Shown piece by piece: positions 11,714-17,416 of a stretch of DNA of 64,000 bases. A program made the translations under genes and the position numbers. Location: assembly GCA_030616775.1 (NCBI GenBank), contig JAUWWQ010000001.1:113419-177418 (forward strand), read 5' to 3'. Every line of letters starts with the position of its first letter. The first letter of the stretch is position 1. The notes beneath the pieces are model-generated. The model made no database searches and had not been told where the DNA came from. It saw only the letters and a list, made by a program, of their open reading frames with translations. The DNA comes from Planctomycetota bacterium (GTDB lineage Bacteria > Planctomycetota > Phycisphaerae > UBA1845).

Positions 11714-12061
11714 GTGGTTAACCGTTACTTCGTCGGCCGCGGGGGTTTTCGACCGGCCGCGGCGGATCGCCTATCCTTCCGACCTTGGCTCTACGCCGGT
11801 AGATCGTAGCAGTCAGCGTTCCAGGCGCAAACCCCTCGGAGACGGGCACACTGGCAAACCGGTTTTACCGGCGCTCCACCAGAAGCCGCGAGAGAGCCCA
11901 CGCCAAAAAGCCGCTCCCGCCGTCGGGATGCGCCGAATCGGGCCCAAAGGCCCCCAGTGCGGTCGGGAATCCGCCGGGCGCCATTGCCGGACAACAGGCC
12001 GATCGTGTATACTGATCCTGCCCGGCGGGGAGATACCGCGGGCTTTTACAGGAGAATGCCC
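11714..12061. other. Divergent intergenic region between thrC and the PLP gene at 12062
   Basis: About 350 bp with no convincing gene. It holds the candidate sigma70 promoter listed separately and the ribosome binding site AGGAG (12050-12054) of the PLP gene. Reading frames running through it have no family-like content. Confidence 0.5.
11984..12013 (+). promoter_or_regulatory. Candidate sigma70 promoter for the trans-sulfuration gene
   Basis: TTGCCG (11984-11989) and TATACT (12008-12013) are separated by 18 bp, ending about 48 bp before the ATG at 12062. The match is good by eye but not tested. Confidence 0.4.
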
Positions 12062-13525
12062 ATGTTTGGCGGTGAAGAAATCGAAATCACACCGGGGATG
12101 CAACGGTACATCGATCGCAACAACGAGTATCTCGCCAAGCGGGCCAAGTACATCCGCGACGTGGTCAAGAAGTGGAAGTTCGACACCATTGCGGTCCACG
12201 GGCTCTATTCCGTCGAGGAGGCGATCGAGGACTACCAGGGCGCCATCATCGAGCCCATCTTCATGAGCGCGTCGCAGGCCTACCGCGACTCGGATGAGCT
12301 GGCCGCGGCCCTGGCCTACCTGATCCCCACCTGGTGCTACTCGCGCATCGCCAACCCCTCGACCTACTATTACGAGTGGGCGCTCGCATTGCTGGAGGGC
12401 TACGGCTTTGACGGCGAGACCTCATGCTGCTCGACGTCTTCGGGCATGGCGGCGATCATGACGGCCGTCCAGCCGTTTTTGGTGCACACCAAGCACCACG
12501 TCCACGAGCCGCGGAACTTCCTGGCCACCGCCCAGTGCTACGGCGGCACCTTCCAGCAGTTCAACGTCCGTTTGATGCAGGAGCGCGACATCGAGTGCCG
12601 CTGGGTCGAGGATCCCACCGACATCGACCAATGGGCTTCCAAGATCGATGGGAACACGCGCTTTCTGTATGGCGAGTTGCCCAGCAACCCCCAACTGGGG
12701 TTCTTCGACGTTGCGGCGGTGGCGGACCTGGCCCACAGCCATAACCTCCCTCTGATCTGTGACTCGACCGTGGCTACGCCTGCCCTTCTGCGTCCGATCT
12801 GCCACGGCGCTGACATCGTGGTGCAGTCCGCCTCCAAGACTCTGACCGCAAGCGGTTTTGGGATAGCCGGTGCGGTGATCGCTCGCAAGGACCTGATGAC
12901 CAACATCGACAACGACGATCTCAAGAAGGATTTCGCCCTTTACATCAAGTACCTGCCCAACCGGGATTACGGCCCGAACCTCCACCCCATGCAGGCCATT
13001 ATGACCTTAAATGACATGCGGACCCTGCGTTCCAAGATGGACCTGCTCAGCCGCAACACTATGAAGGTGGCTGAGTTTCTCCAGGGCCATCCGCAAGTGG
13101 AGAGCGTCGGTTATCTCGGGCTGCCCCACCATCCGCTGCACGAGCTGGCCAGTAAGTACATGTGGCTGGTGGACGCGGAGCACGACGAGCAGTACGGCAA
13201 GCCGGTCAACCGCTACGGGCACCTGATGTCCTTCTGCGTCAAGGGCGGAGCAAAGCCGGCCCGCAAGTTCTTCGATGGTCTGCAACGGATCTGGCGGGCC
13301 ACCGACCTGGGCCGGATCAAGAGCGTGGCCACCATCCCGGCTATCTCCACCCATCAACAGCAGGGCGAGGAGGGCCGTAGACTGGCCCATGTCCCGCCGA
13401 ACATGGTCCGGCTCTGCGTGGGCGCCGAGCATCCCGACGACATCATCGCCGACCTCGACCAGGCGCTACACAAGATTAAATCGCGGCGCGCGGTGGGGGC
13501 CAGCAAACCCGCGCCGGTCTCCTGA
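12062..13525 (+). CDS. Trans-sulfuration-type PLP enzyme (Cys/Met metabolism family), 487 aa
   Basis: The start is ATG 12062, seven bases after AGGAG; an ATG at 12056 lies too close to that site. Residues from about 40 on match the cystathionine gamma-synthase / gamma-lyase / O-acetylhomoserine sulfhydrylase fold: HGLYSVEEAIEDYQGAIIEP, the aromatic-rich YSRIANPSTYYYEWALALLE, the glycine/serine turn CSTSSGMAAIMTAV, and the PLP lysine K259 in VQSASKTLTASGFGIAG. It is longer than typical members (about 400), with an extra 35-residue head and insertions. Placement between thrC and the homocysteine methylation operon supports a role in making homocysteine or cystathionine, but the exact reaction (gamma-synthase, sulfhydrylase or lyase) cannot be decided. 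Confidence 0.8.
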   Translation: MFGGEEIEITPGMQRYIDRNNEYLAKRAKYIRDVVKKWKFDTIAVHGLYSVEEAIEDYQGAIIEPIFMSASQAYRDSDELAAALAYLIPTWCYSRIANPSTYYYEWALALLEGYGFDGETSCCSTSSGMAAIMTAVQPFLVHTKHHVHEPRNFLATAQCYGGTFQQFNVRLMQERDIECRWVEDPTDIDQWASKIDGNTRFLYGELPSNPQLGFFDVAAVADLAHSHNLPLICDSTVATPALLRPICHGADIVVQSASKTLTASGFGIAGAVIARKDLMTNIDNDDLKKDFALYIKYLPNRDYGPNLHPMQAIMTLNDMRTLRSKMDLLSRNTMKVAEFLQGHPQVESVGYLGLPHHPLHELASKYMWLVDAEHDEQYGKPVNRYGHLMSFCVKGGAKPARKFFDGLQRIWRATDLGRIKSVATIPAISTHQQQGEEGRRLAHVPPNMVRLCVGAEHPDDIIADLDQALHKIKSRRAVGASKPAPVS

Positions 13526-13682: not shown

Positions 13683-15143
13683 ATGAGACCTATTGTCAGA
13701 TTCCTGGGGGATGAACTGGTACGGAACATCGTCGCCGAGGCCCGGAGCGTCCTGTGCACGCTCGGAGTCGAGATCCGCAACAACGGTATCCTCTCCATGC
13801 TATCGGATCACGGCGCCAGGGTCGATGCCGAAAAGGGCCGTGCCTTTTTTACCCATGATGTCATCGACAACGCTCTGGATGCCGCTCCCGGGCGGTTCCG
13901 CCTATATGACGTGCTCGGGCGCGAAACACACGATTGCTCCGGGGATAATGTCTATTTCACGCCCGGCTCCGCAGCCATAACCATCCTCGATGGCAACACG
14001 AACAAGATTCGTACGCCGACATCACAAGATTATATCAACTACGTGAAAGTCGTGAGCCAGCTCGACAACATCGCATCGCAAAGTACGGCGCTTGTTCCGG
14101 GCGATGTACATCCAAATATCTCCGACAGCTACAGGCTATACCTTAGTCTCATGTTCTGCGATAAGCCGGTTGTCACCGGCGCCTTTACCATCGACTCCTT
14201 CAACGTCATGAAGGATCTACAGCTTGCCGTACGAGGAACGAGGGAGAACTTGAAGGAGAAGCCTCTTGCCGTATTCTCCTGCTGTCCGACTGCGCCCTTG
14301 AAATGGAGTGACGTCACATCACAGAACGTCGTTGACTGCGCCTTGTATTCCATTCCCGTAGAATACATATCCATGCCGCTGTCCGGATTTGTGGCCCCGG
14401 TCACGCTGGTTGGTACACTGGTGCAACACACCGCCGAGACCATAAGTGGGATAGTCATAAGCCAGCTCACCAATCCCGGCACGCCGGTCCTCTATGGAGG
14501 CTCGCCGGCCGTCTTTGACGTCCGCTATGAGACCACGCCGATGGGCGCCGTGGAAACAATGATGATCGACTGCGCCTATAATGAGATTGGCAAACACCTG
14601 GGTCTACCCACCCAGGCATACATAGGACTGAGTGATGCCAAGCAACTCGACGCCCAAGCCGGTCTGGAATCGTCCATGGGGGCTACGCTGGCCGCTCTGG
14701 CCGGTATCAATAACATATCAGGTCCGGGAATGCTGGACTTTGAAAGCTGCCTGAGCCTCGAAAAGCTCGTCGTGGACAATGAAATATGCGGCATGGCCTT
14801 GCGCCTTGTAAAGGGGATAGAACCTAAGGAGGACTTTCCGGCCCTTCCGAGATTCGAGGAGCTCCTCAAAGAGCAGCACCTGCTGATATCCAAACACACA
14901 CGCCGGTATCTCAAGGAAGAACACTATCTGCCCGGGCCGACGATTGACCGGGCCAACCGATCGCGCTGGGAGCAGGAAGGCGGACTCACCCTTGGTGAGC
15001 GGGCCCACGCGGAGGTAGAGAGATACCTGGCCAATTATCAACCTTCATCGTTGTCCGAAGATATCCAAGCGGAATTGACAAGACTCATGAACACTGAGGC
15101 CGCCCGTTATGGAATGGACGGCCTTCCACACAGCAATCTATGA
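13683..15143 (+). CDS. MttB-superfamily (non-pyrrolysine) methylamine:corrinoid methyltransferase, 486 aa
   Basis: ATG 13683 follows GGAG by 7 bases; a GTG at 13680 is the alternative. The sequence matches the trimethylamine methyltransferase (MttB) family, for example LCTLGVEIRNNGILSML, VYFTPGSAAITILDGNTNKIR, NPGTPVLYGGSPAVFDVRYETTPMGA and GLESSMGATLAALAGINNISGPGMLDF. No in-frame amber codon occurs, so it belongs to the large pyrrolysine-free group. Characterised members there demethylate quaternary amines such as glycine betaine or proline betaine. It should transfer a methyl group to the Co(I) corrinoid of the protein at 15883. Its stop overlaps the next start as ATGA (15140-15143), indicating translational coupling. 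Confidence 0.85.
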   Translation: MRPIVRFLGDELVRNIVAEARSVLCTLGVEIRNNGILSMLSDHGARVDAEKGRAFFTHDVIDNALDAAPGRFRLYDVLGRETHDCSGDNVYFTPGSAAITILDGNTNKIRTPTSQDYINYVKVVSQLDNIASQSTALVPGDVHPNISDSYRLYLSLMFCDKPVVTGAFTIDSFNVMKDLQLAVRGTRENLKEKPLAVFSCCPTAPLKWSDVTSQNVVDCALYSIPVEYISMPLSGFVAPVTLVGTLVQHTAETISGIVISQLTNPGTPVLYGGSPAVFDVRYETTPMGAVETMMIDCAYNEIGKHLGLPTQAYIGLSDAKQLDAQAGLESSMGATLAALAGINNISGPGMLDFESCLSLEKLVVDNEICGMALRLVKGIEPKEDFPALPRFEELLKEQHLLISKHTRRYLKEEHYLPGPTIDRANRSRWEQEGGLTLGERAHAEVERYLANYQPSSLSEDIQAELTRLMNTEAARYGMDGLPHSNL

Positions 15144-15853
15144 CCGAGATCATCACATTCTCAGCCGAAGAAGCTGCACCGGACAGAAATGCTGTCTTCG
15201 AGGGTCAGGGTATACCTGCAGGGGCGGTTGTCACACAAGACACCGAAGACTTATACAACACGGCGCGCGATGTGCTTTCGGACAGCGCTGCGCCGGTCGC
15301 CATGTTTGCGGAAATATCCAAGGCGGATTTCGCCGTTGTCTACCGCGGAGTAGGGTTCAACGAGCCGAGCACACCCGTCAAGGATATTTCTGCCCGGGCC
15401 GAACAGCTAGCCCTGTTTGCACTCACGTTAGGCAAGTCAATAAGTGAGAAAATCACGGAGCGTTTCGAGGCGGGCGACTTCGCAACGGCCAGCATGCTGG
15501 ACTCTGCGGCCTCCGCAGCGGCCGACAGGCTCGCTGGTATCGTTGAACCGCGCTTTCTTGAGTATCTCCTATCCAGAGAACTGGCTACGCCTTCCACAAC
15601 AGTATTGGGCTATAGCCCCGGTTATTGTGGCTGGCACATGAGCGGCCAGGAGAAGCTCTTCGAGTTTCTTCAACCTGGACGGATCGGAATTTCGTTGACG
15701 GAGAGTTTTCTGATGCAGCCGTTGAAATCGATTTCCGGCGTCCTTATTGCGGGTCCCGCTGACATCCACAGATTCGCCAATTCCTATCCGCTCTGCTCTC
15801 TCTGCGAGACCCAGAGCTGCCGAAAGAGGATACGGGCATTACCGGAAACATGA
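15140..15853 (+). CDS. MetH-activation-domain-like corrinoid reactivation protein, 237 aa
   Basis: The C-terminal half aligns with the AdoMet-binding activation domain of cobalamin-dependent methionine synthase. LGYSPGYCGWHMSGQEKLFE corresponds to the R-x-A-P-G-Y type AdoMet loop, and GISLTESFLMQPLKSISGVL to the conserved LTESFAMWP segment. In MetH this domain re-methylates oxidised Co(II) corrinoid using AdoMet and an electron. Here it is a separate protein, so it probably services the corrinoid protein two genes on. The tail has a Cys motif, YPLCSLCETQSCRKR (C-x2-C-x4-C), absent from MetH, which might bind an Fe-S cluster or zinc. The ATGA overlap with the MttB-like gene supports joint function. 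Confidence 0.8.
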   Translation: MTEIITFSAEEAAPDRNAVFEGQGIPAGAVVTQDTEDLYNTARDVLSDSAAPVAMFAEISKADFAVVYRGVGFNEPSTPVKDISARAEQLALFALTLGKSISEKITERFEAGDFATASMLDSAASAAADRLAGIVEPRFLEYLLSRELATPSTTVLGYSPGYCGWHMSGQEKLFEFLQPGRIGISLTESFLMQPLKSISGVLIAGPADIHRFANSYPLCSLCETQSCRKRIRALPET

Positions 15854-15882
15854 AGTACTGACGACACACAGAAGGAATCGAT

Positions 15883-16521
15883 ATGGATATACTCACGCGG
15901 ATTTCGGACACCCTAATCGGCGGTGACGATGAGAACGTTGCCCGGCTTACCCGGCAGGCGATTGATCAGGGCATCCCGGCCAAGGACATTCTGGATAGAG
16001 GACTCATTGGCGGGATGAATACCGTCGGTGAAAGATTCAAAGTGCATGAGATCTTCCTGCCGGAGGTGCTTCTGTCGGCAAGAGCCATGCACGCCGGGTT
16101 GGATGAAATCAAGCCCTTGTTGATCCGGGACGGGGTCCCATCGCGCGGCAAGGTAATCATCGGTTCGGTACAGGGTGATTTGCACGACATTGGCAAGAAC
16201 CTTGTCGGAATAATGCTGAAAGGCGCCGCCTTCGAGGTGATCGATCTCGGCAACGACGTAGCCCCGGAGAGTTTTGTGGAGACGGCAACAAGGGAGAACG
16301 CCGTGATAATCGGCATGTCCGCGCTGCTCACGACGACAATGCCGATGATGGGCTCAGTCGTCAACCTCGTCAGGGAGCAGGGTCTCGGCGACCGTTTGAA
16401 GATCATAATCGGCGGAGCCCCCGTCTCCGAAGAGTATGCCCGCCAGATTGGTGCCGATGCGTACGGCTTTGACGCGGCCAATGCGGTCGACCGTGTGAAA
16501 AGTCTTGTAGGTGTGAACTGA
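15883..16521 (+). CDS. Corrinoid-binding methyl carrier protein (MtbC/MtaC-like), 212 aa
   Basis: The protein has the two-domain plan of small corrinoid proteins. An N-terminal four-helix cap (LARQAIDQGIPAKDILDRGLIGGMN, GERFKVHEIFLPEVLLSARAMHAG) is followed by a Rossmann-like B12 domain. That domain holds the base-off/His-on signature D-x-H-x-x-G in VQGDLHDIGKNLVGIML, a GMSALLTTTM loop and IIIGGAPVSEEYARQIGADAY. It carries the methyl group between the MttB-like enzyme and the homocysteine methyltransferase, which starts one base after this stop. AGAAGGAA lies just before the ATG. Family assignment is firm; the partner is inferred from the operon. Confidence 0.9.
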   Translation: MDILTRISDTLIGGDDENVARLTRQAIDQGIPAKDILDRGLIGGMNTVGERFKVHEIFLPEVLLSARAMHAGLDEIKPLLIRDGVPSRGKVIIGSVQGDLHDIGKNLVGIMLKGAAFEVIDLGNDVAPESFVETATRENAVIIGMSALLTTTMPMMGSVVNLVREQGLGDRLKIIIGGAPVSEEYARQIGADAYGFDAANAVDRVKSLVGVN

Positions 16522-16522
16522 G

Positions 16523-17416
16523 ATGAAGCAGCTTCTTGAGCGACTTACCACCGGAGAAATCTTGGTTGCAGATGGAGCAATGGGGACACTCCTTTTCCAT
16601 AAAGGGCTCAAGCCCGGTGACTGTCCTGAGTCTGTTAATCTTGCCAGGCCGGAGATTATGGAAGAAATCGCCGGCTCATATCTGGCTGCCGGCGCAGACA
16701 TAGTCCAGACCAACACCTTCGGGGGATCTTCGCTGAAACTCGCTGCATATGCTCTGGGTGAAGCCGCGGAAGAGATAAACCGAAATGCCGTCACTGCAGT
16801 TCGAAAAGTAGTCGGTGAGCGTGCCTACGTGTCCGGGTCGTGCGGTCCGACCGGCAAGATATTGAAGCCCTACGGAGATGCCGACCCCGAGGAACTCTAC
16901 GACAGTTTCCACAAACAGATCCAGGCGCTGGTCAGTGCCGGGGCCGACTGTGTATGCGTCGAGACTATGGTGGATGTCAAGGAGGCGACATTGGCTGTCA
17001 GGGCCGCGAAGGAGGTTTCCTCAGGTACTCCCGTGATGGCCACAATGACATTTGATGCCACCGCAAGGGGCTTCTACACGATAATGGGCGTGGATATCAA
17101 ACAGGCTGCATCCGGGCTCGAAGAAGCCGGGGCGGATGTTGTCGGCTCCAACTGTGGCAATGGCATTGAGAACATGATCAAGATCGCCAGAGAGTTTCGA
17201 GAGTGTACCGGCCTACCTCTTATTATTCAGTCTAATGCCGGCATGCCGGAGACCAAGGATGGTGCAACAGTATACAGGGAAACACCTGAGTTCATGGCCG
17301 ATAGAGCCGCCGAACTGATTGATACAGGTGTGTCGATCATTGGGGGCTGTTGTGGAACCACTCCGAAGCACACTGCTGCCATGCGGAAGATGGTCGATAC
17401 GCTCACAAAACGTTAA
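16523..17416 (+). CDS. Homocysteine S-methyltransferase domain protein (MetH module 1-like), 297 aa
   Basis: A single Hcy-binding TIM barrel equal in length to the first module of MetH: ILVADGAMGTLLFHKGLKPGD, YLAAGADIVQTNTFGGSSLKL, CVETMVDVKEATLAVRAAKE. Zinc/homocysteine ligands are the Cys in VVGSNCGNGIENM and the Cys pair in IIGGCCGTTPKHTAAM. It lacks the folate, B12 and activation domains. Two of these are supplied by neighbouring genes and the folate module seems to be replaced by the MttB-like protein. The gene should form methionine from homocysteine and methyl-corrinoid. The one-base gap to the corrinoid gene shows tight co-expression. Confidence 0.85.
   Translation: MKQLLERLTTGEILVADGAMGTLLFHKGLKPGDCPESVNLARPEIMEEIAGSYLAAGADIVQTNTFGGSSLKLAAYALGEAAEEINRNAVTAVRKVVGERAYVSGSCGPTGKILKPYGDADPEELYDSFHKQIQALVSAGADCVCVETMVDVKEATLAVRAAKEVSSGTPVMATMTFDATARGFYTIMGVDIKQAASGLEEAGADVVGSNCGNGIENMIKIAREFRECTGLPLIIQSNAGMPETKDGATVYRETPEFMADRAAELIDTGVSIIGGCCGTTPKHTAAMRKMVDTLTKR

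Follow-up and report, generated by a model that had tools for sequence, protein, structure and literature searches.

Methionine synthase MetH is a corrinoid enzyme with its modules in the order Hcy-Fol-B12-Act. The locus considered here lies in a window of 64,000 nucleotides (the whole stretch of DNA that we analysed, positions 113,419 to 177,418 of contig JAUWWQ010000001.1, assembly GCA_030616775.1) from a planctomycete of the Phycisphaerae, and consists of four adjacent genes, which we call the cassette, for an MttB-superfamily protein (B), a protein of the MetH-activation type (Act), a corrinoid carrier (C) and a homocysteine S-methyltransferase (E). The closest known system is MtgBCDE of Ruegeria (PNAS 2025). 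In Ruegeria pomeroyi, and in the split synthase of Phaeobacter inhibens, the MttB-family donor, the carrier and the homocysteine methyltransferase are separate proteins, as they are in the cassette, and mutants show that the carrier, pterin and Hcy proteins are needed for methionine (PMC12478193; PMC5764234). A search of the titles and abstract openings of the open-licence literature, without supplements, found no description of the four-gene cassette. We show that the cassette is a real, widely conserved variation on corrinoid methionine synthase, and we consider it probable that it functions as a separate-subunit, folate-independent, corrinoid-based methionine synthase fed by a methylated compound.

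The four genes are as follows.

13683..15143, + strand: B, MttB-superfamily methyl donor protein, non-pyrrolysine, 486 aa (PF06253, E 2.4e-72)
15140..15853, + strand: Act, free-standing protein, predicted MetH-activation-type corrinoid activase, 237 aa (PF02965, E 9.4e-12)
15883..16521, + strand: C, corrinoid carrier protein, 212 aa (PF02310 and PF02607)
16523..17416, + strand: E, homocysteine S-methyltransferase, 297 aa (PF02574, E 1.7e-68)

Open frames and Pfam matches place them in one compact run on the + strand (13683-17416), with the B stop overlapping the Act start in an ATGA at 15140-15143 and a 1-bp gap between the C stop TGA (16519-16521) and the E ATG (16523), which bears out the four adjacent genes, single ATGA overlap and single 1-bp gap described in the initial annotation. 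None of the four proteins matches PF00809 (Fol) in the Pfam search, leaving the Hcy, Fol, B12 and Act set of MetH without its Fol member, and none matches the PF01717-type catalytic domain that characterises MesA-D at E <= 0.001.

To assess conservation, the Genome Taxonomy Database (GTDB) r220 species genomes were scanned using 20 aligned B proteins, and the best 80 of the 298 relatives found were kept (B identity at least 69%). All four genes are present in 50 of these 80 loci, and in 44 of the 60 where at least 2.9 kb of contig follows B; because the relatives were picked by B alone, the cassette is not a chance assembly. The order is B-Act-C-E in 48 of the 49 loci resolved at the level of open reading frames and Act-B-C-E in the other, with a median C-to-E gap of 1 bp (48 loci). 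Four-gene loci cover about 12 phylum-level lineages of uncultured bacteria, with hosts in Planctomycetota/Phycisphaerae, Stahlbacteria/WOR-3, TA06, Gemmatimonadota, Cloacimonadota, Zixiibacteriota, Aegiribacteria/Fermentibacteria, Neomarinimicrobiota, Bacteroidetes, Acidobacteria, Aminicenantes, Eisenbacteria and Electryonea. B is the most conserved of the four proteins, with a median pairwise identity of 0.70 as against 0.44 for Act, 0.60 for E and 0.62 for C. Clustering of the neighbouring genes in 79 of the 80 loci (L072 had no placed run) found no recurrent fifth partner, no family exceeding 13 loci or holding a constant position, the exception being five WOR-3 loci with a common neighbourhood (L041, L044, L061, L063, L069).

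The best computational support for a folate-independent synthase comes from hosts in which E may be the methionine synthase. We searched 51 genomes (50 source genomes of the 80 loci and that of the window, G000) for PF02574, PF01717, PF00809, PF02219 and PF14574, counting as a MetH-type frame any open frame with both PF02574 and PF00809 matches, paired by eye. Among the 18 genomes without such a frame, PF01717 matches seven (G004, G010, G016, G024, G027 and, weakly at about 100 bits, G005 and G007) and PF02219 another three (G006, G020, G048), while the remaining eight (G015, G018, G026, G031, G036, G037, G044, G047) have neither. Three of the eight (G015, G036, G037) carry one or two PF02574 matches beyond E, and in the other five (G018, G026, G031, G044, G047) E is the single PF02574 match, with no PF01717 (MetE) or PF02219 (methylenetetrahydrofolate reductase, MTHFR). 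Pterin proteins in these five are FolP-sized at most, with none in G044 and G047 and, in G026, an additional 41-residue piece below the cut-off. A PF01053 match above 450 bits, which could supply homocysteine, is found in G015, G018, G026, G036 and G037, so that two of the five E-only genomes, G018 and G026, retain a strong and likely homocysteine-forming enzyme; G026, G036 and G037 are chromosome records spanning about the whole genome. The Zixiibacteriota record CP070756.1 is an example of a host with the cassette only. These E-only genomes favour a folate-independent synthase.

The residues on which the assignment of the individual proteins turns are listed below.

14628..14630, + strand: codon 316 of B (CTG, Leu), the pyrrolysine position of MttB (X334 of 7xcl opposite Leu316 in a hidden Markov model (HMM) alignment)
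15608..15628, + strand: Act residues 157-163, GYSPGYC, a degenerate S-adenosylmethionine (AdoMet) motif followed by the near-invariant Cys163, with Gly157 replacing the expected Arg
15794..15820, + strand: Act residues 219-227, the CxxCx4C C-terminal tail (family alignment)
16177..16194, + strand: C residues 99-104, DLHDIG, the DxHxxG motif, with D99, H101 and G104 each in at least 63 of 64 C sequences
17153..17155, + strand: E Cys211, in at least 50 of 51 E sequences
17348..17353, + strand: E Cys276-Cys277, each in at least 50 of 51 E sequences

PF06253 spans residues 3-471 of B, which places it in the MttB superfamily, and a sequence search of the Protein Data Bank (PDB) matches it to MtgB (9yce/2qne) and MttB (7xcl), the HMM-alignment scores against the two being about equal; its best named relative is a Phycisphaerae bacterium protein at 84% identity, and it falls short of the TIGR02369 cut-off (353 against 525 bits). 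Leu316 is conserved in at least 80 of 81 B sequences, and the B frame stays open as far as codon 487, hence has no in-frame amber codon of the kind found at position 334 of pyrrolysine-containing MttB. With respect to the pyrrolysine-pocket positions of MttB (PMC9842639), Ser96-Ala97 of B stand opposite Gly110-Thr111 and Ser346 opposite Tyr364, with Met231 corresponding to Met249 (read by eye). The Rfam element PYLIS_3, the pyrrolysine insertion element of mttB, does match the window at 14628-14727 above the gathering score, with no amber codon there, and matches 13 B genes, the window's included, across the window and the 36 of 80 loci scanned. We reject it as a real pyrrolysine signal, as it looks like coding-sequence resemblance to mttB, and codon 316 encodes Leu in the window.

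C matches 1y80, MttC (7xcn_M) and MetH in the PDB search, and with PF02607, PF02310 and a DxHxxG sequence, which we take to be the corrinoid-binding motif, it has the make-up of an MtgC/MtbC-like corrinoid carrier, reaching the NCBIfam cut-off of no named carrier. E combines PF02574 with three conserved cysteines (Cys211, Cys276 and Cys277), presumably at the zinc-ligand positions, as expected of a homocysteine S-methyltransferase, and its best PDB match is MetH of T. maritima (1q7m, E 6.4e-53), the match to BHMT being weaker (7.7e-21).

The predicted fold of Act is of the TM0269/MetH activation-domain type. Four cysteines are near-invariant in its family, and three of them form the CxxCx4C tail: Cys219, Cys222 and Cys227 are present in 103, 102 and 103 of 103 Act-family sequences, and CxxCx4C occurs within the last 60 residues of all 120 homologues among the matches listed. 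The Arg of RxxxGY, which we assume to be the AdoMet motif of MetH-type activation proteins, is present in 67 of the 120 homologues among the matches listed and is Gly157 in the window's Act, while the MetH of the same organism has RYSFGY at this place. Because the four cysteines are near-invariant, whereas the Arg is kept in only this part of the family and is Gly here, we propose that Act is an iron-sulfur (Fe-S)-assisted activase. The initial annotation had AdoMet-dependent corrinoid repair taking the place of RamA; the fold and the absence of a RamA domain from the genome agree with this, while the use of AdoMet has become uncertain, given Gly at the motif Arg position and a family that keeps the four cysteines rather than this Arg. 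The cysteine set is not confined to the cassette, as Act homologues outside it (L093:1195-1992 and L094:298-1131) retain both SPGYCG and CxxCx4C. A further homologue (L090:1-2139) adjoins the gene of a corrinoid carrier and another that begins, as read by eye, like one for a monomethylamine methyltransferase, a neighbourhood suggesting that this protein type may serve other corrinoid systems as well.

The RamA domain is found in four of eight genomes without Act beside B as against one of 43 with it (Fisher p 0.0013), in a comparison where the genomes are non-independent (the WOR-3 genomes G005 and G007 have almost the same surroundings) and B-only loci account for two of the four RamA cases (G014, G048); this hints that RamA substitutes for Act there. 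A search with the Act profile in 14 relatives with an Act-less locus found an Act-like frame (228-327 aa) elsewhere in six (G012, G014, G022, G049, G054, G055), a 286-aa Act-like frame beside MetH in G039, MetH only in G051, and no match in six (G005, G007, G048, G052, G053, G056).

Carriers in the Co(I) state are methylated by proteins of the MttB family (PMC8604678), and in Phaeobacter and Ruegeria methionine is formed with a carrier and a PF02574 protein that are separate (PMC5764234; PMC12478193); from this we infer a direct transfer from B to C to E. Going by the protein families, a methylated compound, likely an amine or betaine, would lose a methyl group to B, the corrinoid of C would take it onward, and E would pass it to homocysteine to give methionine; Act would re-reduce inactive corrinoid via an Fe-S cluster, with or without AdoMet, in place of the ATP-driven RamA. 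A further reading, which strikes us as plausible though short of probable, is that folate is bypassed altogether, with the MttB barrel replacing Fol and an Fe-S Act replacing RamA, so that in some candidate-phylum bacteria the cassette is the sole methionine route and all AdoMet methyls derive from a scavenged compound.

The organism of the window is not such a case. Its genome (4.45 Mb, 108 contigs, 97.8% complete) encodes a complete 1173-aa MetH (Hcy, Fol and Act by profile, the B12 region by BLAST) and a 332-aa MTHFR (PF02219), and the cassette is therefore at most a second methionine route here, which would likely be auxiliary to MetH. E, C and Act are only 34%, 34% and 27% identical to the corresponding parts of this MetH, indicating that the cassette did not arise by a recent split of that enzyme. 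The proposal in the initial annotation that Hcy, B12 and Act are separate and Fol is replaced by MttB thus describes the cassette correctly, while the organism as a whole retains the complete enzyme. The genome search that it had called for found metH, no PF01717 (MetE) match and no separate folate:corrinoid methyltransferase: PF00809 is limited to MetH and one 292-aa protein, called FolP by size and score, with no separate MtgD-type pterin methyltransferase. Nor did a genome search find a second MttB, or the RamA/MtgA partner that might have served B from elsewhere: the RamA C-terminal domain (PF14574) has no match in this genome, the control match being in Methanosarcina only, which sets it apart from the MtgBCDE system with its RamA. 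Against the refuting conditions named in the initial annotation the result is mixed, with no RamA/MtgA partner found but a folate-type methionine synthase present.

Several observations weigh against a folate-independent methionine synthase. Besides MetH and MTHFR in the window's genome, a MetH-type frame is present in 33 of the 51 genomes, so that the cassette is not needed for methionine in most hosts, and three of the E-only genomes (G031, G044, G047) have no strong PF01053 match; these may be scavengers that do not make homocysteine themselves. The profiles also have blind spots: PF01717 missed the Methanosarcina control, which has MesC, and core synthases of the MesC (perhaps MesB) type could escape it, just as flavin-free MTHFR escapes PF02219 (PMC7857596), and metagenome-assembled genomes can be incomplete, a completeness figure being at hand for G000 alone. 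The aligned pocket positions of B differ from both MtgB and MttB, the sole characterised members compared. At least one cassette gene is missing in 30 of the 80 loci; the contig ends less than 2.9 kb from B in 14 of these and runs on for at least 2.9 kb in 16, which hold B alone (L008, L024, L026, L068, L084), B-Act (L013, L059), B-C (L039, L045, L085), B-C-E without Act (L016, L018, L023, L066) or B-Act-C without E (L025, L055). The B of L008 (9985-11304), at 94% the closest to the window's among the 80, comprises only residues 1-435 in otherwise unrelated DNA, a fragment produced by transfer, loss or misassembly. Correlation among the four proteins' distance matrices is modest (Spearman 0.35-0.54), and parts may therefore have been exchanged. 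Finally, neighbour clustering shows no recurrent transporter or amine-catabolism gene, and Rfam scans of the window and 36 of the 80 loci found no SAM or cobalamin riboswitch beside the cassette, so we discard riboswitch control; a SAM-I/IV match lies about 5.7 kb downstream of E in an Aegiribacteria locus (L038:12373-12476).

The frequency of MetH in the hosts, the window's organism with its MTHFR included, would suit a catabolic module whose main job is amine demethylation, with homocysteine, and then AdoMet, as methyl sink, and the MttB-family members whose activity the cited papers report are catabolic methyl donors (PMC8604678; PMC12478193). We regard this as unlikely, since uptake or downstream catabolism genes do not recur among the clustered neighbours, E is the sole homocysteine methyltransferase match in G018 and G026, which have no PF01717 or PF02219, and homocysteine seems ill suited to taking up methyl groups in bulk. 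Alternatively, B could be a new methyltetrahydrofolate:corrinoid methyltransferase, making the cassette a split MetH that is tied to folate and has exchanged its folate module for another TIM barrel. The unusual conservation of B, as expected with a ubiquitous endogenous donor, its pocket positions unlike those of the amine enzymes, and the PF02219 match in 39 of the 51 genomes speak for this; the 12 genomes without PF02219 include all five E-only genomes, and no pterin-binding family matches B, making it to our mind a slightly poorer prospect than a catabolic role. It would be most surprising if E worked alone on betaine in the manner of Bmt/BHMT, with the corrinoid genes as mere neighbours: the Bmt of P. 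inhibens by itself does use betaine and dimethylsulfoniopropionate in vitro (PMC12366255), but the 1-bp spacing of C and E recurs across loci, E is nearer to MetH than to BHMT, and it misses the PRK07534 cut-off (231 against 338 bits).

One neighbour of the cassette in the window deserves mention.

12008..13525, + strand: atypical O-acetylhomoserine sulfhydrylase-like pyridoxal phosphate enzyme, flanking and outside the conserved cassette (PF01053, E 2.6e-78)

The trans-sulfuration-type gene noted upstream in the initial annotation is thus present, but it does not travel with the cassette: its protein has no counterpart in any of the 80 related loci at E <= 1e-5, which places it outside the conserved unit, and it reaches no NCBIfam cut-off among 25 of 45 families. 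The enzyme is long, and similarly scoring PF01053 proteins (469-470 aa frame) adjoin canonical ones in G036 and G037; the window's genome has a canonical PF01053 enzyme less than 5 kb from its MTHFR.

If the cassette is a folate-independent methionine synthase, it would fill a gap of missing methionine synthases in several uncultured lineages, for example on a Zixiibacteriota chromosome without MetH, PF01717 and PF02219, and it would explain what a large orphan branch of metagenomic trimethylamine methyltransferases, otherwise taken as evidence of methylotrophy, is for. It would also offer a four-protein system of donor, carrier, acceptor and activase open to reconstitution, and a type of corrinoid activase in which conserved cysteines are built into the fold of the MetH activation domain.

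Compared with MetH and with TM0268/TM0269 of Thermotoga, the cassette is without Fol, has the rest in three proteins and adds an MttB-type protein, and its Act in the window has a CxxCx4C tail and no AdoMet-motif Arg. MtgBCDE cannot do without its pterin protein MtgD, as mutants in mtgD are methionine auxotrophs (PMC12478193), whereas no MtgD was found in the genome here. Activation in that system is ascribed to RamA and DUF1638, no PF02965 protein having been found in P. inhibens, while the activase of the cassette is of the PF02965 type (PMC12478193; PMC5764234). The MtgBCDE genes are dispersed in Ruegeria and Phaeobacter and colocated in S. meliloti, but there with MtgD (PMC12478193). MtpB, MtcB and MtyB with MtqC, MtqA and RamQ share with the cassette an MttB-family donor and a small corrinoid carrier; their acceptor is tetrahydrofolate via MtqA, and RamQ is ATP-dependent, where the cassette has a homocysteine methyltransferase and Act instead (PMC8604678). 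MesA-D, like the cassette as proposed, make methionine independently of folate, partly from corrinoid proteins; they are related to the C-terminal domain of MetE, whereas E is a PF02574 protein with its methyl-donor protein encoded alongside (PMC7857596).

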